This document shows positions 95 to 32,832 of a DNA stretch of 35,092 nt, in pieces; position 1 is the first letter of the stretch, and every line of letters begins with the position of its first letter. The stretch comes from an uncultured Acetatifactor sp. (GTDB lineage Bacteria > Bacillota > Clostridia > Lachnospirales > Lachnospiraceae): positions 1 through 35,092 of the forward strand of contig CANPYG010000021.1 of NCBI GenBank assembly GCA_947588205.1, given 5' to 3'. The translations under genes were made by a program, and so were the position numbers. The notes below the pieces were generated by a model. It was not told the origin of the DNA and made no database searches. It saw only the letters and a list, made by a program, of their open reading frames with translations.

Positions 95-123
95 TTGAAA
101 TATGATCCGGAGGATGATATATT
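95..123 (+). promoter_or_regulatory. SigA-type promoter for the GTPase-NYN gene
   Basis: TTGAAA at 95-100 and TATATT at 118-123 are separated by exactly 17 bp. The expected start of transcription lies near 130, giving a leader of about 108 nt before the ATG at 239. Upstream, 10-25 holds a small inverted repeat (AAGCCA/TGGCTT) without a T-run. Nothing else was recognised in 1-238; its second half is purine-rich and contains repeated TCCGG/GTCGG words. Confidence 0.55.
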
Positions 124-238: not shown

Positions 239-3106
239 ATGGCGGAAAATAGGAAAAAGGCAGTCGTTGGGATTCTGGCCCATGTGGACGCAGGGAAAAC
301 GACCCTTGCAGAGGGAATTTTATATTTGAGCGGTGCGCTGCGTAAGCTGGGCAGGGTGGACCATAGGGACGCTTTCCTGGACAACTATGAGCTTGAAAGG
401 GCCAGAGGGATTACGATTTTTTCCAAGCAGGCTCTTGTGACGTTGGGAGACTGGGAGCTGACGCTGCTGGATACCCCCGGACATGTGGATTTTTCCGCGG
501 AGATGGAACGCACGCTGCAGGTGCTGGATGCGGCGATCTTGTTGGTGAGCGGCGCCGACGGCGTGCAGGGGCATGTGGAGACTCTGTGGAGGCTGCTCGC
601 CCGGTATCGGGTTCCTGTTTTCCTTTTTATCAATAAGATGGATCAGGAAGGAACGGACCGGGCGGCGCTTTTAAAAGAAGTGCAGCAGCGCCTGGACGAG
701 CGGTGCGTTGGTTTCAGCGTCGATCGCATGGAGCCGGAGGAGGCCAAAAATCGCCGTAAAAAGGGGGAGCCTGTCAACACCAGGGAAGTATGGCTGGAAA
801 ATACAGCCATGTGTGAAGAGTCGCTTATGGAGGAGTATCTGGAAAGCGGAACCTTGTCCGAAGACGGGATCAGATGCGCCATCGCAGACAGAAAGGTCTT
901 TCCTTGTTTTTTTGGTTCTGCCCTGAAGCTCACCGGCGTGGAAGAGTTTTTGGAAGGGCTACAGCAGTACTTGTCCGTAAGAAGCGGTCCGGAAGGATCA
1001 GAATTTGGAGCTAGGGTTTTCAAGATTTCCAGGGATCCCCAGGGCAACAGGCTGACCCATATGAAAATAACAGGCGGCAGCCTTAAGGTGAAATCCGTGA
1101 TCGACGGGGAAAAGGTTGATCAGATCCGTATTTATAACGGTGCGGGATATAAGCTGGCGGAGGAGGTCTGTCAGGGAACCGTCTGCGCCGTGACGGGACT
1201 GTTCCATACCCGAAGCGGGCAGGGGCTTGGTTCGGAACAGGAGGGAGAGGTGCCTCTGCTGGAGCCGGTGCTCACCTATCAGATCAGGATTCCGGAAGGC
1301 AGCGACGCGGCGACGGTTCTGGGAAAGCTGCGTCGGCTTGAAGAAGAGATTCCGGAGCTTCACATTGTCTGGAAGGAGGCGGTGGGAGAGATCCACGCCC
1401 AGGTTATGGGAGAGGTGCAGATAGAGATTTTAAAGAGTCTGATCCGGGAACGGTTTGGACTGTATGTGGAGTTTGATGAAGGGAGCATTGTTTATAAGGA
1501 AACCATCGCGGCTCCCGTGGAGGGTATCGGGCATTTTGAACCCTTAAGGCATTATGCGGAGGTGCACCTTTTGATGGAACCCCTGGAGCCGGGGAGCGGT
1601 CTGCAGTTTGCCGCCGCCTGCAGCGAGGATGTCTTGGACCGCAATTGGCAGCGGCTGGTCCTGACCCATCTGGAAGAGCGCAAGCATGTGGGAGTGCTGA
1701 CCGGATCGGAAATTACGGATATGAAGATTACATTGGTGGCAGGGCGCGCGCACCTGAAGCATACGGAAGGGGGAGACTTCCGTCAGGCGACCTATAGGGC
1801 TGTGCGCCAAGGACTCAGGAAGGCAGAGAGCATTCTGTTGGAGCCTGTTTATGAGTTTTCTCTGGAAGTGCCGTCGGAAGCGACCGGACGCGCCATGACC
1901 GATCTCCAGAAGATGCAGGGCAGCTTTCAGCCCCCTGAAATAAATGGGGAGTTCACGGTGCTCAGAGGGAAGGCTCCTGTGGTGAATATGCGGGGTTACC
2001 AGTCGGAGGTGATTTCCTATACCAGGGGGCGTGGGCGTCTGATCTGTATTTTAAGCGGTTATGAGCCCTGTCACAATGCCCTGGAAGTGATAGAACGGAT
2101 CGGTTATGATCCGGAGGCGGATCTGGAGAACCCTGCCGGAAGCGTTTTCTGTGCCCATGGGGCGGGATTTGTGGTGAGCTGGGATCAGGTGGAGCGCTAT
2201 GCCCATGTGGAAAGCGGAATCGACATGAAAAGCATAGAGAGCGCAACGTACCGACATGATGCCGGATGGAGTGCCCTGAGCGTCGCTATGCCGGATGAAG
2301 CAGGGCAGGCTGGACGGAGAAAGGATTCTGACGCCGGGAGAAGTTCATCAGAAAGCAGGGCATATAGTTCGTCAGGAAGCGGGGCATATGCCAGTGATGA
2401 GGAGCTGGAAGAGATTTTTGTCAGAACCTATGGACCCATTAAAAGAGACCGCAACAGGTTTAACCGCAACAGGGGGCAGGAGATTCTGGAATCCCGGGTC
2501 GGGAATCCAGTCAGGGAGAGTCAGAATCCGGTCGGAGGAAAACAGAATCCGGTCGGAAGAAAGCAGAATCCAACTAGGGAGAAGCAGGAGGAATATCTTC
2601 TTGTGGATGGCTATAATATTATTTTTGCCTGGGAGGATCTGCGGGAGCTGTCTGAGGTGAGCATTGACGCCGCCAGAAGCAAATTGATGGATATTTTATG
2701 CAATTACCAGGGCTTTTGCCAGAATACCGTGATTTTGGTCTATGACGCATATAAGGTAAAGGGTAATCCCGGAAGTGTGGAGAGGTATCATAATATTTAT
2801 GTGGTCTATACGAAGGAAGCGGAGACTGCCGATCAGTATATTGAAAAGACGGTTCACCAGATCGGAAAAAAGTATCAGGTGACGGTGGCAACTTCCGACG
2901 CCCTGGAACAGATGATCATATGGGGAGAAGGGGCGGTCAGGATGTCCGCGGCGGGACTGCGTGAGGAGATACGGAATGTGAATGCCCAGATCAGGGAGGC
3001 TTCGGAGCAGTCAGCTCCCGGCCAGAAGCATTATCCTTTCCGGAACATGACGGAAAAGCTGGTTATGGGGCAGGAAAATTCGGACAGCGGGGCGGCGCGA
3101 GAATAA
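239..3106 (+). CDS. TetM/EF-G-like ribosomal GTPase fused to a Rae1/YacP-like NYN endoribonuclease domain
   Basis: This 955-residue protein joins two ribosome-acting modules. Residues 1 to about 690 follow the EF-G/TetM plan: G1 AHVDAGKT (14-21), G2 RGIT (56-59), G3 DTPGH (78-82) and G4 NKMD (132-135), then domains II to V. Spacing and sequence are closer to tetracycline ribosomal protection proteins (TetM/TetO) than to housekeeping EF-G. Residues from about 690 to 784 are a low-complexity linker with three 7-residue QNP repeats. Residues from about 785 to 930 match the YacP/DUF901 NYN domain: LLVDGYNII, VYDAYKVKG, ETADQYIE and ATSDALEQ, including the conserved acidic positions. In Bacillus subtilis the stand-alone YacP (Rae1) cleaves mRNA in the ribosomal A site. 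The ATG at 239 follows GAGAGG. The downstream TPR gene at 3273 is probably co-transcribed. Domain calls are strong. Actual tetracycline protection, or a role in clearing stalled ribosomes, is inference. Confidence 0.9.
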   Translation: MAENRKKAVVGILAHVDAGKTTLAEGILYLSGALRKLGRVDHRDAFLDNYELERARGITIFSKQALVTLGDWELTLLDTPGHVDFSAEMERTLQVLDAAILLVSGADGVQGHVETLWRLLARYRVPVFLFINKMDQEGTDRAALLKEVQQRLDERCVGFSVDRMEPEEAKNRRKKGEPVNTREVWLENTAMCEESLMEEYLESGTLSEDGIRCAIADRKVFPCFFGSALKLTGVEEFLEGLQQYLSVRSGPEGSEFGARVFKISRDPQGNRLTHMKITGGSLKVKSVIDGEKVDQIRIYNGAGYKLAEEVCQGTVCAVTGLFHTRSGQGLGSEQEGEVPLLEPVLTYQIRIPEGSDAATVLGKLRRLEEEIPELHIVWKEAVGEIHAQVMGEVQIEILKSLIRERFGLYVEFDEGSIVYKETIAAPVEGIGHFEPLRHYAEVHLLMEPLEPGSGLQFAAACSEDVLDRNWQRLVLTHLEERKHVGVLTGSEITDMKITLVAGRAHLKHTEGGDFRQATYRAVRQGLRKAESILLEPVYEFSLEVPSEATGRAMTDLQKMQGSFQPPEINGEFTVLRGKAPVVNMRGYQSEVISYTRGRGRLICILSGYEPCHNALEVIERIGYDPEADLENPAGSVFCAHGAGFVVSWDQVERYAHVESGIDMKSIESATYRHDAGWSALSVAMPDEAGQAGRRKDSDAGRSSSESRAYSSSGSGAYASDEELEEIFVRTYGPIKRDRNRFNRNRGQEILESRVGNPVRESQNPVGGKQNPVGRKQNPTREKQEEYLLVDGYNIIFAWEDLRELSEVSIDAARSKLMDILCNYQGFCQNTVILVYDAYKVKGNPGSVERYHNIYVVYTKEAETADQYIEKTVHQIGKKYQVTVATSDALEQMIIWGEGAVRMSAAGLREEIRNVNAQIREASEQSAPGQKHYPFRNMTEKLVMGQENSDSGAARE
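2522..2584 (+). repeat. three in-frame 21-bp tandem repeats in the GTPase-NYN linker
   Basis: Three adjacent 21-bp units start at 2522, 2543 and 2564, each beginning CAGAATCC. They encode QNPVGGK, QNPVGRK and QNPTREK. Units 1 and 2 are nearly identical and unit 3 has diverged. Just upstream (about 2347-2396) a looser two-copy repeat encodes similar S/G/AY-rich stretches. Confidence 0.85.
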
Positions 3107-3272
3107 AAGTTCTTGGCAAGAGAGGTTAGAGGAATATTTTTTAGGGGAAATGACGGCGGGATCAGAAATGGCAGTAAAATCCGAAAAGGTTGCAGGATCC
3201 GAAAAGGCGGCAGGATTAGAAACGGCTGCGGGTCAAAAACGACGGCGGAATTAGAAAGGCGGTTTTATAGAA
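3107..3272 (+). repeat. purine-rich degenerate repeat spacer
   Basis: The 166-bp spacer between the fusion gene and the TPR gene is mostly degenerate purine-rich repeats (AAATCCGAAAAGG, GGATCCGAAAAGG, GGATTAGAAACGG and similar, about 3170-3260). A TTG-initiated reading frame from 3113 crosses it. Its product is low-complexity (repeated RIRKG/RIRNG) and overlaps the next gene, so it is not called. No terminator is visible, which fits co-transcription. Confidence 0.5.
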
Positions 3273-5909
3273 ATGTTGGATTTATCGGCGATTACGAAAC
3301 AGGTAGACAGTCTGCTGGATGAAAATAAGGGGCAGGAAGCGGAAAATCTCATGAAAGAAAGCATTGTCCAGGCAGTGTGGGAGGAGGATGACAGCGCGCT
3401 GCTTTCCCTTTTGAATGAGCTGATCGGGTATTATCGGGAAACCAGCCAAAGGGAGGCTTCTTATCAGCTGGCGGATCAGGCGAAGCTATTGATGGACAGA
3501 ATGGGATTGGAGGGAACGATCCCTTATGCCACGACGTTGCTCAATATAGCCAATGCTTATCGCGCGGGAGGAAGGCTTTCGGATTCCATGAGCCACTATC
3601 ATAGGGTGATGGAGATCTACAGGAAGCTGCTTGCGCCGGATGATATGCTGGTGGCGAGCCTGGATAATAACATCAGTCTCCTGTATCAGGAGATGGGGGA
3701 TTTTGAACGGGCGAAGGAGCACCTTCTGAGCGCCCTGTCGGTCGTGGAGCGTAAACCTGAGGCTTACTTTGAACTGGCGGTGACCTATTCCAACCTGGCG
3801 GCAACCTGCCTTCGCTTAAATCAGGATGAAGAAGCTGCCGGGTATTTTCGGAAAGCGATCGCGATTTTTGAAGAGCACGGGGTGGAGGAGGCCCACTACA
3901 GCGCGGCGGTTTCTGCCCTGGGAACCTATTATTATAAAAAAAGGGAATATGCAAAGGCGGCGGAAAGCTTCCGTAAGGCCATGGACTGTGTGCGCAGGTC
4001 TCTGGGGGAAAACGAACATTACCATCGCCTGAAGGAGAATCTGGAAATCTGCCTGAAACAGATGAAAAATTGGGAGGAGGTCTCTCAGGAAGAAGAGGAT
4101 CCTGAAAAAGAAGGCGAACCGGAGGAGAACTTTCAGTCCGGGCTGTCTCTCTGCAGGGCATATTATGAGGAATACGGAAGCCCCATGATCCGGGAACGCT
4201 TCCCGGAATATGCGGACAGGATTGCCGCAGGGCTTGTGGGAGAAGGCTCTGATTGTTTTGGCTATGACGATGAGCTTTCCAGGGATCACGACTGGGGACC
4301 GGGTTTTTGCCTGTGGGTGACACAGGAAACCTGGGAGCAAATCGGAGAAGCGCTGCAGGAGGCTTATGAACAGCTTCCAAAGGAATACAGGGGATATGTC
4401 AGGACGGTGAGTCTCCAGGGAAAGGACAGGCGGGGGGTGCAGACAATCAACGGCTTCTATAGCCGCCTGCTTGGAGAGAAGGATTGGGAAACCCTGGGAA
4501 GGCCGCTGGCGGAAGGGAAGAAATCTGGGAATGATTCCGAGAAGGGTTCCGGAGAAAATTCTGGAGAAAAAATGGGGAAGAAAAGCGAAGCAGTCTCCGG
4601 GAAGATGCTGGAGGACGGAGACTGGAAACAGATGTCCGATTCCGCCCTGGCTGCCTGCGTCAACGGGGAAGTATTCTGCGACGGGGAAGGGATCTTCAGC
4701 GCCGTGAGGGAAGAGCTTCGCAGGGGATATCCGGAACACATCCTGTTTTTAAAGCTGGCGGAAAGCGCCGCGAGATTTTCCCAGACAGGACAGTATAATT
4801 ACGGCCGCATGGGAAAGCGGGGCGATGCTGTGACCGCCCAGATGATGCTGGGGGATTGTCTCAGGGAGGCGATGAAGCTGTGCCTTTACATGGAAAACAG
4901 CTATCCGCCACATGACAAGTGGCTATATAAGGCGGCCAGCGGACTCGCGGGCTATGAAAGGGCGCAGGCTTTGCTCCTGGAGATCGCAGCCGTCGGGAAA
5001 GAAAGACAGGAGGACGCAGGGAAGAGAGAAAGCGGACAAATGGGAACCCAGGTAGAAGCGGCCGGGCAGAAAAAAAGCCCGCAGAAGAGGGTTGGACAAA
5101 TGGGAACCGGGGAAGAAACTGCCGGACAAAAAGAGATCAGACAAAAGCAGGGAATCCCGGAGCTTGTGGAGCAGCTGGCCGGATTTCTTGCGGCAAAGCT
5201 TTATGAAAAGGGCTATATCAGCGACACGGAACCCTATTTGGACGCCCATACGGAGGAACTTCTTATGAAAGCCCAGTTCGCCCGTAAAAGCGACAAGGAA
5301 CTGGTGGAGGATATCGTAAAGCTGGAGTTTGAAGCCTTTGACAAGGTGCGCAACGTGGGAGGCCGGGCGGACTGCCAGAATGACTGGTATACCTTTAATA
5401 TCATGCGGCAGAGTCAGTACCTGACCTGGAACCGGACCATGCTGCTGCAGTATCTGTATGATTTCCACAGGGAGCTTGCCAGGGGGCATAACCTGATCAC
5501 CGAAAAATATGGCCGCATGATGGAGAGCACGGCGCCGGAGGAGTATGAGGCGTTAAAGGAGCATTTCCCGGAACTTGGAGAGGAAAAGAAGGCTATTATC
5601 GAGGCGATTGTCAGCCTGCAGGTGGGTTGGATGGAGGAGTTTGAAGCGCACTATTCAACCCTCGCGGGCAACGCCAGAAGTGTGCACACCTCTGACGATA
5701 ATCTGTATAACACCTCCTATGAAACCTATCTTAGGGGAGAGCTGGGCACCTATTCCGATAAGATGCTGGAGCTTTACGGAAGGTATGTGGTGGATCATGC
5801 CCGGGAAGGTAAGAATCTGACCTATGAGATCATGACCAACAGCGTGAAAATGTATGGTTATCCGGATCTGCAGAAAGCGGAAGAGGAGATGAGCAGGTTC
5901 CAAACCTAA
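3273..5909 (+). CDS. TPR - DUF4037 (nucleotidyltransferase-like) - DUF4125 protein
   Basis: An 878-residue cytoplasmic protein with three parts. Residues from about 10 to 270 are tetratricopeptide-type helical repeats (for example ALSVVERKPEAYFELAVTYSNLA). Residues from about 290 to 500 match DUF4037, a nucleotidyltransferase-fold family; the active-site-like stretch near 323-342 has GEGSD followed by a D-H-D triad (SRDHDWGPG). Residues from about 672 to 870 match DUF4125, with NDWYTFNIMRQSQ, TWNRTMLLQYLYDF and TSYETYLRGELGTYS. Linkers between the parts are Lys/Glu/Ser-rich and one carries a 20-codon duplication. The ATG at 3273 has AGAAAGGCGG upstream. It follows the GTPase-NYN gene on the same strand and probably shares its transcript. 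DUF4037 and DUF4125 lack a well-established function, so a role is not assigned; nucleotidyl transfer to a protein or RNA is only a possibility. Confidence 0.8.
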   Translation: MLDLSAITKQVDSLLDENKGQEAENLMKESIVQAVWEEDDSALLSLLNELIGYYRETSQREASYQLADQAKLLMDRMGLEGTIPYATTLLNIANAYRAGGRLSDSMSHYHRVMEIYRKLLAPDDMLVASLDNNISLLYQEMGDFERAKEHLLSALSVVERKPEAYFELAVTYSNLAATCLRLNQDEEAAGYFRKAIAIFEEHGVEEAHYSAAVSALGTYYYKKREYAKAAESFRKAMDCVRRSLGENEHYHRLKENLEICLKQMKNWEEVSQEEEDPEKEGEPEENFQSGLSLCRAYYEEYGSPMIRERFPEYADRIAAGLVGEGSDCFGYDDELSRDHDWGPGFCLWVTQETWEQIGEALQEAYEQLPKEYRGYVRTVSLQGKDRRGVQTINGFYSRLLGEKDWETLGRPLAEGKKSGNDSEKGSGENSGEKMGKKSEAVSGKMLEDGDWKQMSDSALAACVNGEVFCDGEGIFSAVREELRRGYPEHILFLKLAESAARFSQTGQYNYGRMGKRGDAVTAQMMLGDCLREAMKLCLYMENSYPPHDKWLYKAASGLAGYERAQALLLEIAAVGKERQEDAGKRESGQMGTQVEAAGQKKSPQKRVGQMGTGEETAGQKEIRQKQGIPELVEQLAGFLAAKLYEKGYISDTEPYLDAHTEELLMKAQFARKSDKELVEDIVKLEFEAFDKVRNVGGRADCQNDWYTFNIMRQSQYLTWNRTMLLQYLYDFHRELARGHNLITEKYGRMMESTAPEEYEALKEHFPELGEEKKAIIEAIVSLQVGWMEEFEAHYSTLAGNARSVHTSDDNLYNTSYETYLRGELGTYSDKMLELYGRYVVDHAREGKNLTYEIMTNSVKMYGYPDLQKAEEEMSRFQT
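5034..5153 (+). repeat. 60-bp in-frame direct duplication in the DUF4037-DUF4125 linker
   Basis: Two copies with a 60-bp period, 5034-5093 and 5094-5153, each opening GGACAAATGGGAACC. They encode GQMGTQVEAAGQK and GQMGTGEETAGQK followed by diverged tails. The 20-codon duplication keeps the frame and lies in a charged linker. Confidence 0.75.
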
Positions 5910-26790: not shown

Positions 26791-26829
26791 AAAAAAAGGA
26801 AAAAGGTATAGATTGGCAGGTGAGTGCGG

Positions 26830-29800
26830 ATGAATCATGTGTTGGAACGGATCCTGGAGGGAAGATTTGAGGGCGGTTTGGGTTCCCTTGAGTTTTCCTG
26901 TGCAGATATCGCACTCATTCTGGCACCAGGTGCTCTCTATGAGGGCACCTTTGCTGTATATGGGAACGGTGATGGCGAGACCTATGGGTATGTGACTTCT
27001 ACCGATCAGAGGATGGAATGTGTTACCACCGAGTTCCGGGGTATGGAGGATATGATCGGTTATCGTTTCCATGGGGAGCATCTTAAGAACGGTGAAGTGG
27101 TGAAGGGTGAATTCCACATTGTCAGCAACCGCGGGGAATACCGTCTTCCTTATGAGATTCTGATGGACCGGGATCCCCTCGCTTCTTCGGCTGGGGAGAT
27201 CAATAATCTGTTTCAGTTTGCAAATCTGGCGAAGGAGAGCTGGGATGAGGCGCTCAGGATGTTTTATTCGCAGCCCTTTGCCGGGCTGATAGAAGAGCTG
27301 GACGAAAAGGAGAGACTTGCCGGACGGCCCTGCCTGAGAGAGCTTTACCGCGGCTTCAGCGCCAACGCGGGCAATCCTCAAAACATGGAGGAATTTCTGA
27401 TCGCAGCCGGTCAGAAGACGAGGATAGAGTATCTGGTCCAGGAGAATGAGCTGGTGGTGGAGAATCCTGTGGGCGTGGCGGAGGAAGCCGTCAGCATCGT
27501 GAAGAATGGCTGGGGCTTTACCAGGCTTGAGATTGCTGTGGAAGGAGACTTCCTTTATTCGGAGAAGGAAGTGCTGAGCGATGATGACTTCCTTGGGAAC
27601 CGCTGCAGGCTCCCCATTTACATAGACAGCTCCAGGCTTCACGCGGGCAGAAATTTTGGCAGGATCACCCTTTCCGGTTCTTTCCAGACGCTGACGGTAG
27701 CCATTACCGTGAGGATCGGGTCTAAGGGCAGTGCCGCCGTCAGCGCAAGGCGGGAGTGGAAGCAGTCATTGTTGCGGTTAATGGAGCTGTACCAGTCTTA
27801 TCGGCTGGGGAGCCTATCCCCACATACCTGGATGAAGGAATCGGGAAGCCTGATAGAACGTCTCGCAGTGATGAACGAGCGGGATGTCATGGTGCGTCTG
27901 CTGCAGGCACAGCTTCTGATCGCCAGGGAGCGTTTCCATGAGGGCAACTGGATGCTGGAGCACTCTCTTGAACTGATCGAGGAATCCGAAGGGGACAATA
28001 GCGCCCTTTACGCATATTATTTGTACCTGACCACACTGTTGAAGCCGGAAGGCTGGTATCTGAAGCAGGTTTCGGAGGAGCTGGAGGATTTATACCGCCG
28101 CAACCAGGATTCCTGGCAGGTGGCGTGGGTGCTTCTTTTCCTGTCTCCCGAATACAATCGGAAAAGTTCCGCCAGATGGGGCTTTCTGGAAAAACAGTTT
28201 GAGAACGGATGCACCAGTCCGCTCATTTATCTCGAGGCCCTGATCCTTTTAAACCGGAATCCGGCCGTCCTGCGTACTTTAAAATCGTTTGAAATCCAGG
28301 TTTTATCCTATGGCTGCAGACAGGATATGCTTTCTTCCCAGCTGGTGGATCAAATGCTGTATCTCGCGGGAAGGAAGAAGGATTATTCTCCCGTTCTGCT
28401 CAGGGTGCTTGTTTCCTGTTATGAAAAACGCAGTTCCTCCGCAGTTTTGCAGGAAATCTGCTCTCAGCTGATCAAAGGAGGGCTCACGGGGCCGAAGGCC
28501 TTTCAATGGTATGAGCTCGGGGTTGAGCAGGAGCTGCGCCTTACCAAGCTGTATGAATATTATATGATGTCCATGGATCCGGAAGGTGACAGGGAGATTT
28601 CCAGAAAAGCGCTCCTTTATTTCTCATACCAGGTCAATCTGGATTATGAGCGCACGGCCTATTTATATCGTTATGTGGTGAGCCGCAGACAGCAGGATCC
28701 GGATCTGTTTGAAAGCTATAGGGAGCGTATAGAATTTTTTGTGCTGGACCAGATCAAAAAGGAACATATCAATCGGAATCTGGCTTACCTGTATCAGAAG
28801 ATCCTTGTACCGGAGCTTTTCGGGGAGCTGATGGCGGAAGGGCTTGTAAAGCTTTTGTTCGCCTGGGAGATCAGGATAGAGGATCAGGGAATTCCTTCGG
28901 TATGTCAGACGATCTGCCGCGCCGTCTGCAGCCGCCCCGGTGTGGAGCAGATGATGACGTATCCTGTGGTGAACGGTTCCGCCTGGGTGCCGTTGTACCG
29001 CCCGGATGATGTGGTACTGCTGGAGGACACCAAGGGGAACCGGTATCTTGTAAGCGAAGGATACCGGAGTAAGGCAGCTGATGTGGAGGAGGTTCCCCTG
29101 GGGAACCGGTATCTTGCAAGCGGTGTATTCCGCTTGCAAAAGCTGATGGATGAGGCACAGTTTTTGGAGCTCACCTGCTTCTATGCGCTGACAGGGGGCG
29201 TGGACAGCAGGCTGAGGCTTGGAGCGCTGACCCGGGAGAGAGAGGCTTATGGACTGTCTGCGCCGGATCTGTCTCTGATCCTGTTCGCCAGGTATGTCTG
29301 GGAACAGGGAAGCGGAGGATCCCTGACGGAGGATCAGTTATACTGCGGAAGGCTGCTGGCAGATGCCGCGCAGCTTGACCCCTCTTATCGGGAGGAGGTT
29401 CAGCTGAGAATGCTTCGGGAATATGCTGCCAGGGATGATGTGCGCAGCCTGAATTTCATTTTGGATCAGGTGCATCCCCAGGATCTGGATGATGCCGGCC
29501 GCAGTGAGGTGCTTGGATATTTGGTCGGGCAGAACAGACTGGAGACAGCATATCAGTGGGTGGCGGATTTCGGAACCGGTTCTGCAGACGGCAAAACGCT
29601 GCTGCAGATCCTTTCCTATGAGGTGGAGCATGTAGATTATACGGAAGACGATGTGCTGCTGCTAAGGACTGCACATGCTTTCCGTCAGGGGAAATACGAC
29701 GGAAATATTCTTCATTATCTGGCAAAGCATTTTCGCGGGCTGACCAGCGAAATGACGGCGGTATGGAAGGCAGCCAGATCCTTTGGCGTGGATACCTTCG

Positions 29801-30636
29801 AGTTGTGCGAGAATCTGCTGTTACAGATTTTGTTTACCGGTTCGGAAGTGGAGGAAAAACAGGAGATCTTCCGGTACTATATTTCCCAGGGCGCCAAGGC
29901 GGCCGTGGAGGAGGCATATTTAAGACAGAGCGCTTATGCCTATCTGATAAAGGGCACTGTGCCGGATGAGACCGCGGTCAGGGAAATGCTTCAGATGTTC
30001 TTACGCGGGGATGAACTGCACCTGACGGAAAAACTGGCGGTGTTAAGTCTTTTCGGAAGCCCCCGGGACGAGAAGCTGTCTGAACGTAAGGACGCCTCTG
30101 AAGAAGGGGTTGGCAGAGTGGGCAGGGAAACGCTGACCGGCATCCTGGGCGCCATGCTTTGTGAAATGCTTGACCAGGGTATTTATCTGAATGCTTTCCG
30201 TAATCTTCCGGTGGACGGGAAACTGTTGGAACCCATGCAGGATAAAACAGTGGTGGAGTACCGTACACAGCAGGATGGAAGAGTGATACTGAATTACCGC
30301 ATCAGGCAGCCGGAAGGGGAGCGGGAGCCGGATATCTTTAAATGGGAAGAGATTGCCCCGGTCTGTAAGGGGCTGTATTGTAAGAGCTTTATCCTGTTTT
30401 TCGGGGAAAGCCTGGAATATTATGTGGAGCAGGAAAGAAACGGCGTGATGGAGAGGACTGCGGAAGGCGTCATTGATAAGGAAGATACCCCTTCCAAAGA
30501 GGCCTCCGACCGTTATGACAGGATCAACGACATTCTGCTTGCTTATGCTGTGGAAGATTATGACTCCCTGGACAGGCTTCTGGAGGATTATTATCACAGA
30601 GAATACCTCGGCGGACGATTATTTGTCCGCAGATAG
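26830..30636 (+). CDS. DUF5717 family protein, large beta + helical-repeat protein
   Basis: A 1268-residue cytoplasmic protein without membrane segments, recognised as DUF5717, a family found mainly in Lachnospiraceae. Residues 1-110 are beta-rich (GALYEGTFAVYGNGDGETYG ... VTTEFRGME), and a second beta segment lies near 200-300 (LEIAVEGDFLYSEKE ... FGRITLSGSFQTLTVAITV). From about 320 to 1110 the chain is a long run of helical repeats of the TPR/solenoid type. A last beta domain follows near 1140-1215. The ATG at 26830 has AGGTGAG five bases upstream and is preferred to GTG 26824. It is followed after 40 bp by DUF5716 and then a helical-repeat protein, an arrangement I recall as a recurring DUF5717-DUF5716 pair. 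Function is unknown; a scaffold is a reasonable guess. Confidence 0.8.
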   Translation: MNHVLERILEGRFEGGLGSLEFSCADIALILAPGALYEGTFAVYGNGDGETYGYVTSTDQRMECVTTEFRGMEDMIGYRFHGEHLKNGEVVKGEFHIVSNRGEYRLPYEILMDRDPLASSAGEINNLFQFANLAKESWDEALRMFYSQPFAGLIEELDEKERLAGRPCLRELYRGFSANAGNPQNMEEFLIAAGQKTRIEYLVQENELVVENPVGVAEEAVSIVKNGWGFTRLEIAVEGDFLYSEKEVLSDDDFLGNRCRLPIYIDSSRLHAGRNFGRITLSGSFQTLTVAITVRIGSKGSAAVSARREWKQSLLRLMELYQSYRLGSLSPHTWMKESGSLIERLAVMNERDVMVRLLQAQLLIARERFHEGNWMLEHSLELIEESEGDNSALYAYYLYLTTLLKPEGWYLKQVSEELEDLYRRNQDSWQVAWVLLFLSPEYNRKSSARWGFLEKQFENGCTSPLIYLEALILLNRNPAVLRTLKSFEIQVLSYGCRQDMLSSQLVDQMLYLAGRKKDYSPVLLRVLVSCYEKRSSSAVLQEICSQLIKGGLTGPKAFQWYELGVEQELRLTKLYEYYMMSMDPEGDREISRKALLYFSYQVNLDYERTAYLYRYVVSRRQQDPDLFESYRERIEFFVLDQIKKEHINRNLAYLYQKILVPELFGELMAEGLVKLLFAWEIRIEDQGIPSVCQTICRAVCSRPGVEQMMTYPVVNGSAWVPLYRPDDVVLLEDTKGNRYLVSEGYRSKAADVEEVPLGNRYLASGVFRLQKLMDEAQFLELTCFYALTGGVDSRLRLGALTREREAYGLSAPDLSLILFARYVWEQGSGGSLTEDQLYCGRLLADAAQLDPSYREEVQLRMLREYAARDDVRSLNFILDQVHPQDLDDAGRSEVLGYLVGQNRLETAYQWVADFGTGSADGKTLLQILSYEVEHVDYTEDDVLLLRTAHAFRQGKYDGNILHYLAKHFRGLTSEMTAVWKAARSFGVDTFELCENLLLQILFTGSEVEEKQEIFRYYISQGAKAAVEEAYLRQSAYAYLIKGTVPDETAVREMLQMFLRGDELHLTEKLAVLSLFGSPRDEKLSERKDASEEGVGRVGRETLTGILGAMLCEMLDQGIYLNAFRNLPVDGKLLEPMQDKTVVEYRTQQDGRVILNYRIRQPEGEREPDIFKWEEIAPVCKGLYCKSFILFFGESLEYYVEQERNGVMERTAEGVIDKEDTPSKEASDRYDRINDILLAYAVEDYDSLDRLLEDYYHREYLGGRLFVRR
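29034..29122 (+). repeat. 66-bp-period duplication inside the DUF5717 gene
   Basis: GGGGAACCGGTATCTTG followed by AAGCG occurs at 29034 and again at 29100, 66 bp apart and in frame. The protein reads GNRYLVSEGYR and, 22 residues later, GNRYLASGVFR. The matching 22-23 bp differ at one base, so the duplication or gene conversion is recent. Confidence 0.7.
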
Positions 30637-30676
30637 ACCGCAGGTCGTCCGTAATTTTATGAAAGGAGAGGGTGGA

Positions 30677-31978
30677 ATGCTGGCGAGACCGGGAAACAGT
30701 AAGATCATAGTGGGTTATGATTTGGGAAATGCTTTTTCCCAGATCAGCTTTTATTCGGCGGAGACCAGTGAAGTGGAGACAGTTTCCAGCGTGGCCGGCG
30801 ACGAAGTTTACAGCATTCCCACAGTCCTTTGTAAGCGCTTTGATACAAACCAGTGGCTGTATGGCAAAGAAGCCCTGAAGGCGGCTGCTGACGGAGAGGG
30901 CGTTCTGGTGGAAAATCTGCTGGATCTGGCGCTGGACGGGGAGCCGATCCATGTGGAGGGAACGGTTTATGAGCCGGTGGCGCTTTTGTCTCTTTTTATA
31001 AAAAGAAGCCTCGGCCTTTTCTCCACAGTAGGAAGTATAGACCGGATCGGCGCGTTGATGGTGACCTGTGAACGGATGGACCATCGGCTGGTGGAAGTGC
31101 TGGGGCTGGCGCTGGGAAGGGTGAAGCTCCGTGCCAGGCATATCTGTTTTCAGAGCTATGAGGACAGCTTCTATCATTTTATGCTGCACCAGCCCTCTGA
31201 GCTTTTCCTCTATCAGGCTGTGCTTTGCTGGTATGCCGCTGACAGGATCAAGGTTTACCGGATGCAGTGCAACCGCAGGGCGACTCCGGTAGCAGTTTAT
31301 ACCGGACAGGAGGAATTTCCTTTCCTTTCCACGGATGGAATGCCTGAAACGGAACAACTGCAAAAGGAACGCATGGAGCGCATGGACCGGGAATTGTTGG
31401 GAAGGATGAAGGAAATCTGCGATAATAAGATGATTTCTTCGGTATATATGATAGGAGACGGCTTCCAGGAGGAATGGATGGGCGAGACACTGAAATATTT
31501 GTGCCGGGGAAGGAGAGTCTTCCTGGGAAGCAATCTTTTCAGCAAAGGAGCCTGCCTGGGTATGATGGAGCGCTTAAGCCCCAGCAATGCGGGCAAAACC
31601 CACGTCCTTCTGGGTCATGATAAGCTGAAGACCAACATAGGGATGCGCCTTAACCGGAAGGGAGAGGCCTCCTACTATGCGCTTCTGGATGCAGGCATTA
31701 ACTGGTATGACGCCCAGTCCGGTCATGAGTTTTATATGAAAAATACAGATTTCTTTGATCTGGTGCTGACTCCCCTGGATGGAAAGAGGGGGCATGTCGC
31801 AAGGATCACCCTGGATGGTCTGGAATTTCCCATATCCAGAATGCTCTTAAAGATCCATATGCCGGCGCAGGATCTGGTAGAAGTGACTGTGGAGGATCTG
31901 GGTTTCGGGGAATTCAGGGAGGCCAGCCATCAAATCTGGCGGGAAGAATTGCCGCTTCATTATGACGGAAAGGAGTGA
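30677..31978 (+). CDS. DUF5716 family protein, Hsp70/actin-like ATPase fold
   Basis: A 433-residue protein recognised as DUF5716. Read against the actin/Hsp70 ATPase plan, residues 10-25 (KIIVGYDLGNAFSQISFY) occupy the phosphate-1 position. Next come VYSIPTVLCKR and WLYGKEALKAA, as in the Hsp70 N-lobe; MVTCERMDHRLVEVLGLALG at the connect-1 position; and VYMIGDGFQEEWMGETLKYL with FSKGACLGMM at the adenosine motif and final helix. The phosphate-2 strand (LCWYAADRIKVYRM) lacks the usual DxGGG, so ATPase activity may be weak or lost. The C-terminal 100 residues are beta-rich. The ATG at 30677 has AAAGGAGAGGG upstream. It sits 40 bp after DUF5717 and 5 bp before the next gene, in one operon. The family call is good; the fold is my inference from motif order. 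Confidence 0.75.
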   Translation: MLARPGNSKIIVGYDLGNAFSQISFYSAETSEVETVSSVAGDEVYSIPTVLCKRFDTNQWLYGKEALKAAADGEGVLVENLLDLALDGEPIHVEGTVYEPVALLSLFIKRSLGLFSTVGSIDRIGALMVTCERMDHRLVEVLGLALGRVKLRARHICFQSYEDSFYHFMLHQPSELFLYQAVLCWYAADRIKVYRMQCNRRATPVAVYTGQEEFPFLSTDGMPETEQLQKERMERMDRELLGRMKEICDNKMISSVYMIGDGFQEEWMGETLKYLCRGRRVFLGSNLFSKGACLGMMERLSPSNAGKTHVLLGHDKLKTNIGMRLNRKGEASYYALLDAGINWYDAQSGHEFYMKNTDFFDLVLTPLDGKRGHVARITLDGLEFPISRMLLKIHMPAQDLVEVTVEDLGFGEFREASHQIWREELPLHYDGKE

Positions 31979-31983
31979 ATGCA

Positions 31984-32832
31984 GTGGGTGTCAGTCTGAG
32001 TGTTGGAAATTATGCGGCACATCCTTTTTGTCTGGAGGGTCTCGGCCTTCATGTCTACTGCGCGGAGGAGCTTTGCTATTGTCTGAAGGAAAATGCATTT
32101 CTGTTAGATATGGATCTGCTTTCGGACAAGCTTGTGAACTGGATCCGTCAGGAGTGCGGCCTGGAAGACCTTGCGAAGGAGCTCTACACCATGGTTCACA
32201 GAAAAGGCTCCCTGAGCGCCTTTGTAACCAGGATTCTGGAGTATGTGGGGTTTTATGATCTGCAGGAAATACAGGAGGTGGAGCGCATCCTGAAACGGGG
32301 AGCGGGCTTAAGCATCCTGGAAAAACGTGCCCTTCGCATAGACCAGCTTCTGGATCTTCATAAATATGTGGCGGCCATTTCGGAATATGATGCGCTTCTG
32401 TCCTCCTGGGATGAAGCCTCAGCCGGCAGCAGCATGGCGAGACCGGATCTGAAATCGAAGCTTTTTCATAACCGGGGGATTGCCCTTGCCGGACTCATGC
32501 GCTACCGGCATGCGGCAGAAAGCTTTTATTCCGCATATGAAACCGATGGAAATGAGGAGAGCCTGCGCTGCTTTTTTGTGGCAAAACGTATGGAACTGAA
32601 GGCCAAGGATTATGTTGCCTTTGCCGCAGGGATGCCGGAATACACCGACGTGACCCTGAAGCTGGAAAAAGAGGTGGAGCGGATGAACAAGGTCTGGGAG
32701 TCCTGCGCCGATTATCACCGCCTCAATACCAGACCTCTCTTCCGGGAAGAAGACGAGCCTGGTTATCAGGAGGAAAGCGGGCACATCCTCGCCGCCCTCA
32801 AAGAAGCCTACCGCAGCCAGGCAACCTTCTGA
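31984..32832 (+). CDS. helical-repeat protein of the DUF5717-DUF5716 operon
   Basis: A 282-residue protein without membrane segments. The first 110 residues (VGNYAAHPFCLEGLGLHVYCAEELCYCL ... FVTRILEYVGFYD) form a compact domain. The rest looks TPR-like: SKLFHNRGIALAGLMRYRHAAESFYSAYE is a good TPR unit, and ERILKRGAGLSILEKRALRIDQLLDL precedes it. A GTG at 31975 overlaps the previous stop, but the ribosome binding site AAAGGAG (31968-31974) touches it, so the GTG at 31984, eight bases away, is preferred. It is the last gene of the operon; a terminator lies 90 bp downstream. Function is unknown. The tight coupling suggests it binds the DUF5716 protein. Confidence 0.7.
   Translation: MGVSLSVGNYAAHPFCLEGLGLHVYCAEELCYCLKENAFLLDMDLLSDKLVNWIRQECGLEDLAKELYTMVHRKGSLSAFVTRILEYVGFYDLQEIQEVERILKRGAGLSILEKRALRIDQLLDLHKYVAAISEYDALLSSWDEASAGSSMARPDLKSKLFHNRGIALAGLMRYRHAAESFYSAYETDGNEESLRCFFVAKRMELKAKDYVAFAAGMPEYTDVTLKLEKEVERMNKVWESCADYHRLNTRPLFREEDEPGYQEESGHILAALKEAYRSQATF

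Follow-up and report, generated by a model that had tools for sequence, protein, structure and literature searches.

Why would a bacterium carry an mRNA endonuclease as the tail of a translational GTPase, and does such a protein serve drug resistance or the upkeep of translation? The question is raised by an open reading frame (ORF) at positions 239 to 3,106 of contig CANPYG010000021.1, from an uncultured Acetatifactor sp. (assembly GCA_947588205.1; genome 2.80 Mb). The window analyzed here is that entire contig of 35,092 nucleotides. To our knowledge, what directs ribosome-bound nucleases such as Rae1 to their targets and sets them off is an open question, and a natural fusion that replaces the free enzyme across many clostridial families suggests an EF-G-like GTPase as the partner of Rae1 and offers a single chain in which to test the pairing. 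From comparisons of sequence and gene order, the protein is probably the only Rae1-type mRNA endonuclease of its cell, attached to an EF-G-type GTPase from a non-TetM family and serving general message turnover or the clearance of stalled ribosomes, not tetracycline resistance.

The nuclease half and the yacP locus

As the initial annotation had described, one chain of 955 residues holds a GTPase and a complete YacP/Rae1 NYN domain; the motifs quoted there are all present, and Pfam agrees. The tail matches NYN_YacP (PF05991) at residues 787-940 with 169.2 bits, against a curated cut-off of 24.6. Its sole relatives in the PDB at E ≤ 1 are the two entries for Bacillus subtilis YacP/Rae1 (5MQ8 and 5MQ9; E about 1e-26), and nothing placed the C terminus in a non-ribosomal NYN family, an outcome named beforehand as one that would speak against the annotation. 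D790 and D865 align with D7 and D81 of B. subtilis Rae1, which we take to be active-site residues, and D790, D836, D865, E869, and D887 are kept in all 63 proteins of the alignment. The target of Rae1 is mRNA in the ribosomal A site (review, PMC12320835), and the B. subtilis enzyme, the characterized homologue, cuts mRNA on ribosomes (PMC12320835, PMC10100781). S1025 is among its known substrates (PMC11780869). Since all 56 complete long ORFs that were read, the window's own included, carry both parts, the fusion is no one-off assembly error. With a ribosomal GTPase joined to a Rae1-type nuclease and both active sites conserved, the protein reads most naturally as an mRNA cutter tethered to the ribosome.

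A profile search for a second YacP in the window's own genome (92.9% complete), a check the annotation had proposed, found none. To see where a separate gene would lie, we located rlmB in 15 genomes and examined its junction in 6 genomes with a stand-alone yacP and 7 with the fusion, our own being L235. Four of the six stand-alone genomes (G147, G085, G331, and G128) have yacP adjoining rlmB, in the order cysS, RNase III gene, rlmB, yacP, sigH, with one extra ORF before rlmB in G331; B. subtilis presumably has the matching order. In five of the seven fused genomes, L235 among them, sigH is the next ORF of at least 80 residues after rlmB, and yacP is absent. Both arrangements occur among the species of one genus, the stand-alone gene in G147 and the fusion in G143, and the two clusters are otherwise alike. 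NCBIfam models confirmed cysS, rlmB, and SigH in our genome and SigH in L238, while profiles confirmed the RNase III domain in L235 and L238, sigma-70 domains in L236, L237, L241, L242, and L245, and YacP in L238 and L239; the other cluster genes were identified by BLAST cluster only. Judged by gene content and order, the fusion stands in for the separate yacP/Rae1 gene. No experimental study of this architecture appeared in the titles and abstracts searched, and an earlier report of the replacement may exist in the main Rae1 papers (2017, 2018, and 2023), which lay outside that search.

The NYN_YacP profile was searched in four samples, namely relatives (61 genomes), order (197), class (243), and phylum (149), and matches were classed by the length of their frames as fused-length (at least 600 residues), stand-alone (at most 226), or unclear (235-376). 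Among the matches listed for relatives, order, and class, 327 distinct genomes were classed, comprising 172 fused-length, 149 stand-alone, and 6 unclear; outside this count are 35 of the 185 matching order genomes, 14 of the 164 matching class genomes, and G008. The fusion is widespread in Clostridia, which answers the annotation's call to look for the two-domain architecture across the class, and among the named organisms that have it are Anaerovorax odorimutans, Fusibacter sp., Intestinimonas butyriciproducens, Faecalibacterium sp., Butyrivibrio sp., Ruminococcus flavefaciens, and Parablautia muri. No full fused copy was seen together with a full stand-alone copy among classed genomes with listed matches. 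Six genomes of the three samples have two NYN_YacP matches, and in five of these the second is a fragment or weak, covering 63 profile positions in G080 and 26 in G056; in G008 both matches are long frames, on different contigs. In the phylum sample, fused-length frames above the cut-off occur in 11 of 86 matching genomes; G496 (714 residues, 21 bits) falls under the cut-off, G503 (308 residues) is of the unclear class, and the two matches found together in a single genome are both stand-alone frames. A separate scan found 75 fused loci (73 complete) among its best 80, a share biased upward because the query was built on fused proteins; 2 loci run off their contigs, and 3 (L147, L186, and L191) are not fused in one frame.

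Because the gene is mostly single copy, family-wide, and accompanied by a vacated yacP slot, Rae1's housekeeping job is favored over resistance, and the annotation's even weighting of the two can be given up. The same pattern bears on the idea of a phage-defense or toxin-type protein that shuts off translation, which we regard as far-fetched. Translation-acting nucleases are generally known from such systems, but a PADLOC scan of the fusion, with its neighbors outside the scan, gave no match, and no defense gene by Pfam name was found among the 20 window ORFs scanned. Moreover, the fusion is present across whole families, nearly always in one copy, and two "Bacteriophage sp." records that carry it (L246, MT835563.1; L247, MT835514.1) look like bacterial scaffolds because their flanks hold bacterial housekeeping genes (ProRS, DAP epimerase, FeoB, and an E/Q-type tRNA synthetase).

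The GTPase half and tetracycline protection

The N-terminal part is an EF-G-type translational GTPase by its Pfam content, GTP_EFTU being found together with EF-G domains IV and V. Residues 1-624 match EF-G in a PDB structure comparison, and the part's PDB sequence neighbors are EF-G and then, lower, TetO/TetM. The positions tested in the P-loop, RGIT, and DTPGH motifs are kept in 61-63 of 63 proteins, with one gap row; the Asn of NKMD is kept in 60 and the His of DTPGH, which has a catalytic role, in 62.

The view of such a protein as a Tet-type ribosomal protection protein that gained an RNase, and so as a new form of drug resistance, dates from 2015, when Atkinson and coworkers filed proteins of this kind as Tet and suggested RNase-aided resistance (PMC4342817). 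We first considered tetracycline protection because tet_protect is the best NCBIfam model (418.7 bits); cut-off, loop, tail, and tree then set it back, and we now think it quite improbable. The score lies below the equivalog cut-off of 775, which the Tet(M) or TetM/W/O/S-family controls L113 (874.1 bits) and L115 (819.2 bits) pass; five unfused siblings, GTPases of the same family without the nuclease, also fall below it, at 408-430 bits. Identity to most of the Tet(M), Tet(O), and Tet(S) matches listed is about 28-30%. Where TetM-type proteins have the domain IV loop GLYYSPVSTPADFR with Pro509, said to sit in the drug site (PMC8161019), the fusion has GRAHLKHTEGGDFR with Lys507 at the aligned place. 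The SPVS proline is at 509 in L112, L114, L115, and L116 and at 514 in L113, whose N terminus is five residues longer, whereas the lysine is invariant in the fusion's alignment (63/63), as are H505, H508, T509, E510, and D513. The first tip loop also differs (HIEVPPNPFWAS versus GHFEPLRHYAEV in TetM-type proteins). In place of the TetM tail (QPRRPNSR...), which it lacks, the fusion has a module whose last residues read SVFCAHGAGF.V.WD.V...H, and the unfused siblings stop at the end of that module.

Phylogeny and profile scores agree with these differences. Unfused family members (646-675 residues) score 726-889 bits with the family profile and matches of TetM-type length 366-410 bits, five of which (L112-L116) were read. 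In the GTPase tree, a constraint that grouped the fused rows with five Tet-like rows and kept the unfused siblings out was rejected (p 0.011); among those rows L112, L113, and L115 are TetM-type with the SPVS loop, and L109 and L111 lie below the tet_protect cut-off. By sequence and tree, the GTPase family is distinct from TetM-type drug-protection proteins and forms a separate clade. The initial annotation's picture is therefore upheld in part: a Rae1-type nuclease on a ribosomal GTPase with conserved active sites is supported, and a drug-dislodging role is not, the label "TetM-like" being loose for a protein under the tet_protect cut-off, without the TetM loop or tail, and in another clade. 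The tip chemistry of domain IV predates the fusion, since the unfused siblings share it.

Gene context speaks against Tet-type protection as well. A match covers at least 80% of the fusion in 2 of 1377 matching plasmid records, both large replicons of Clostridia within 250-520 kb (518-kb Monoglobus and 252-kb Agathobacter rectalis, NZ_CP143948.1), and the next rows, from Ligilactobacillus salivarius, match residues 6-658 only, that is, the GTPase. A mobile or phage-borne gene was likewise considered and rejected on these two plasmid records and the bacterial look of the "Bacteriophage sp." records. G143 carries, beside the fusion, a second GTPase match of 644 residues and 374.8 bits, a frame length and score in the TetM-type range. 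No + strand terminator-like hairpin is listed between the promoter-like match at 95..123 and the start codon, and the window gave no Rfam match at the gathering score, so an RNA leader was rejected as well. Genes of this kind should not be taken to confer tetracycline resistance. The A. rectalis match, near full-length, is annotated as "TetM/TetW/TetO/TetS family tetracycline resistance," which is likely misleading; unfused siblings on plasmids are also annotated "TetM/TetW/TetO/TetS family."

Resistance can nevertheless reside in an ordinary chromosomal gene. In the Bacillus cereus group, deletion and expression show that an old chromosomal "TetM" gives tetracycline resistance (PMC5209696), so chromosomal place alone does not rule resistance out, and a resident gene can confer it. 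Because chromosomal place is insufficient, the case against resistance rests on loop, tail, cut-off, and tree.

Origin of the fusion and its possible mechanism

Mapping the fused/stand-alone label onto an NYN tree of 90 rows takes 2 changes (2-3 in the bootstrap, against a mean of 21 for shuffles), and holding all fused NYN rows together is not rejected (approximately unbiased test, p-AU 0.508). In the GTPase tree, 40 fused rows and the tail-less L191 fall on one side of a branch with 100/100 support, and the other unfused siblings fall outside it. These trees fit a single fusion event, probably followed by tail loss in one lineage or more. L191, from a metagenome-assembled genome labelled Bifidobacterium sp., is a 701-residue GTPase without nuclease that nests among the fused proteins, and may represent either tail loss or a mis-binned contig.

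The AlphaFold model is largely confident for the GTPase and NYN parts (mean predicted local distance difference test [pLDDT] 82; predicted template modelling score 0.65), with pLDDT below 50 for linker residues 672-722 and 731-780. Counted from residue 660 to 785, the linker is 63-125 residues long in 56 fused proteins (median 74), and the repeats that the annotation had seen in the window's copy are borne out by the repeat scan (Table 1). It holds a motif of about ELxxIFxxTYG, of which E722 is kept in 61 of 63 proteins and I726 in 62; its end is weaker (T730 in 53, Y731 in 44, and G732 in 51), and a loose pattern for its first half is present in 38 of the 56. Unfused GTPases end ahead of this motif, and it was not seen in 24 stand-alone YacP proteins, only two of which have more than 12 residues before the domain. 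A break within the linker divides the fusion of L186 (Clostridia bacterium UC5.1-1E11) into frames of 672 and 197 residues, through either a natural split or a sequencing error.

TetM-type proteins and EF-G occupy overlapping sites at the A site (PMC8161019). Domain IV and Rae1 should claim one site, so the GTPase and nuclease would have to act in turn or on a neighboring ribosome. We propose that the GTPase would bind the ribosomal A-site region as EF-G does, bringing the nuclease there on a flexible tether of 63-125 residues. A stretched chain measures about 3.5 angstroms per residue, and we estimate that a tether of 63 or more residues could span over 200 angstroms. Upon GTP hydrolysis the GTPase would depart, and the nuclease could then take the vacated A site; alternatively, it could reach a neighboring ribosome. 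Cleavage of the codon in the A site would then produce a truncated message, to be dealt with by the rescue system. A bolder version, possible but doubtful, is a dedicated, GTP-driven ribosome-clearing machine, in which the His/Lys-rich domain IV tip of a hitherto uncharacterized EF-G-like factor would recognize a blocked or empty A site, clear it, and upon GTP hydrolysis hand that site, or a collided neighbor's, to the nuclease. If this were true, many Clostridia would have replaced a freely diffusing Rae1 and made mRNA cutting on the ribosome a GTP-gated reaction of one chain.

The GTPase might instead be a mere anchor that keeps the nuclease near ribosomes, its cycle playing no part in cleavage. 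The long and mostly disordered tether would suit an anchor, as would the fact that stand-alone YacP mostly occurs without the GTPase, a sibling being present in 13 of 46 chosen stand-alone genomes (one split over two frames) and in 12 of 65 from the class sample. The tested GTPase motifs are kept, however, including the DTPGH His, and so is the domain IV tip; because of this retention a passive anchor is distinctly unlikely. We also asked whether the unfused GTPase depends on YacP. The sibling was found in 0 of 12 chosen genomes without YacP (p 0.05 against the 13 of 46, counted by eye) and in 5 of 79 such genomes of the class sample (p 0.036 against the 12 of 65, post hoc, with 14 matched genomes not classed), and these weak counts were not used.

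A third role would be maturation, with the GTPase docking on ribosomes or their precursors and the NYN domain trimming rRNA or tRNA. The stand-alone yacP is often the neighbor of rlmB, which encodes an rRNA methylase, with a gene for an RNase III-domain protein close by, and NYN domains were first proposed to act in rRNA/tRNA maturation (Anantharaman and Aravind, cited in PMC4342817). Gene neighborhood alone is a weak guide, and B. subtilis Rae1 cuts mRNA on ribosomes, as cited above; we judge this role unlikely.

Besides the B. cereus precedent, several observations weigh against a housekeeping Rae1 replacement that arose once. At the rlmB junction, yacP is not beside rlmB in two of the six stand-alone genomes (on a different contig in G111 and about 3 kb away in G323), and two of the seven fused genomes lack a clean rlmB-sigH junction, with an 865-residue ORF between the genes in L243 and a rearrangement in L240. 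Three fused genomes (G343, G390, and G417) have a second frame of 163-165 residues whose match, at 21 bits over 47 profile positions, stays under the cut-off, and they may therefore hold a distant NYN relative. YacP is patchily distributed, with no match in 79 of 243 class genomes, and its function must therefore be dispensable in part. For G143 (fused) and G147 (stand-alone), the tree is suggestive of horizontal replacement (test p 0.125). Finally, the unfused sibling occurs in five genomes without a YacP match (G260, G263, G286, G300, and G393), and the GTPase thus does not need the nuclease.

Locus layout and known relatives

Table 1. Positions of the fusion ORF, its parts, and the promoter-like match in the window
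Feature	Position	Strand	Remarks
Fusion ORF	239..3106	+	955 aa, ATG start, single uninterrupted frame of 955 codons
Promoter-like match TTGAAA-17-TATATT, TG ahead of second hexamer	95..123	+	Consensus match only
G domain, residues 9-245 (P-loop AHVDAGKT, RGIT, DTPGH, NKMD)	263..973	+	Pfam GTP_EFTU, 161 bits
EF-G domain III, residues 342-412	1262..1474	+	Pfam EFG_III, 26.0 bits, just below cut-off 27
EF-G domain IV, residues 416-530	1484..1828	+	Pfam EFG_IV, 64.6 bits
Domain IV first tip loop, residues 429-444, GIGHFEPLRHYAEVHL	1523..1570	+	Family-specific
Domain IV third tip loop, residues 502-515, GRAHLKHTEGGDFR	1742..1783	+	K507 aligned with TetM Pro509
EF-G domain V, residues 533-614	1835..2080	+	Pfam EFG_C, 72.7 bits
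C-terminal module, residues 615-656 (...SVFCAHGAGFVVSWDQVERYAH)	2081..2206	+	Common to unfused siblings; not in TetM-type proteins compared
Linker, residues 661-784, mostly predicted disordered	2219..2590	+	Longest among 56 fused proteins
In-frame 24-bp repeat x2, in linker	2342..2389	+	Repeat scan
Short, partly conserved linker motif, residues 721-732, EELEEIFVRTYG	2399..2434	+	Predicted helix
In-frame 21-bp repeat x2.4, in linker	2522..2571	+	Repeat scan
YacP/Rae1 NYN nuclease domain, residues 785-940	2591..3058	+	Acidic D790, D836, D865, E869, D887

Within the C-terminal module, Cys638 is invariant and His640 near-invariant, and a Pfam scan of the protein gave no match there. The contig starts 238 bases ahead of the ORF, and no upstream gene is visible in that stretch. 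A degenerate 18-bp repeat of 6.2 copies (3154-3262) lies between the fusion gene and the next ORF (3273-5909), which encodes an 878-residue TPR protein with DUF4037 and DUF4125. Farther along, DUF5717 and DUF5716 genes stand in a row (26824-32829) ahead of a SAICAR synthetase gene. A conserved operon partner was sought and rejected, no neighbor family being found at more than 14 of the 131 fused loci, in flanks that reached about 3-4 kb, or less where a contig ended.

The two-part architecture was already known, because Atkinson and coworkers reported in 2015 that Tet proteins of ten Clostridiales species had gained a YacP-like NYN RNase domain and might represent a new resistance mechanism (PMC4342817). 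The window protein, a Tet-like GTPase with a YacP-like NYN domain, belongs to this class and shares its architecture. Those proteins were filed as Tet and tied to resistance, whereas the GTPase studied here lies apart from the TetM clade, and its fusion appears to stand in for the separate Rae1 gene. Our analysis contributes two points: the fusion substitutes for a stand-alone Rae1, probably since a single fusion event, and its GTPase is of a non-TetM family.

Among other known systems, B. subtilis Rae1/YacP (5MQ8, 5MQ9) resembles the tail in its NYN domain and acidic residues, D7 and D81 included, but is a single-domain protein with a 181-residue chain, while here the nuclease is a GTPase tail at an unrelated locus. 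TetM, TetO, and TetW belong to the same GTPase superfamily and have the same domain order; the fusion differs in lacking the SPVS/Pro509 loop and the TetM tail, in scoring below the NCBIfam cut-offs, and in its clade. From EF-G and EF-G-like factors it differs by the domain IV tip loops, the C-terminal module, and the nuclease tail. It also resembles the unfused "translation factor GTPase family protein" (e.g., L097 and L098), a name taken from related plasmid genes; these siblings are of the same family and have the same tip loops and C-terminal module, but end at that module, without linker or nuclease.

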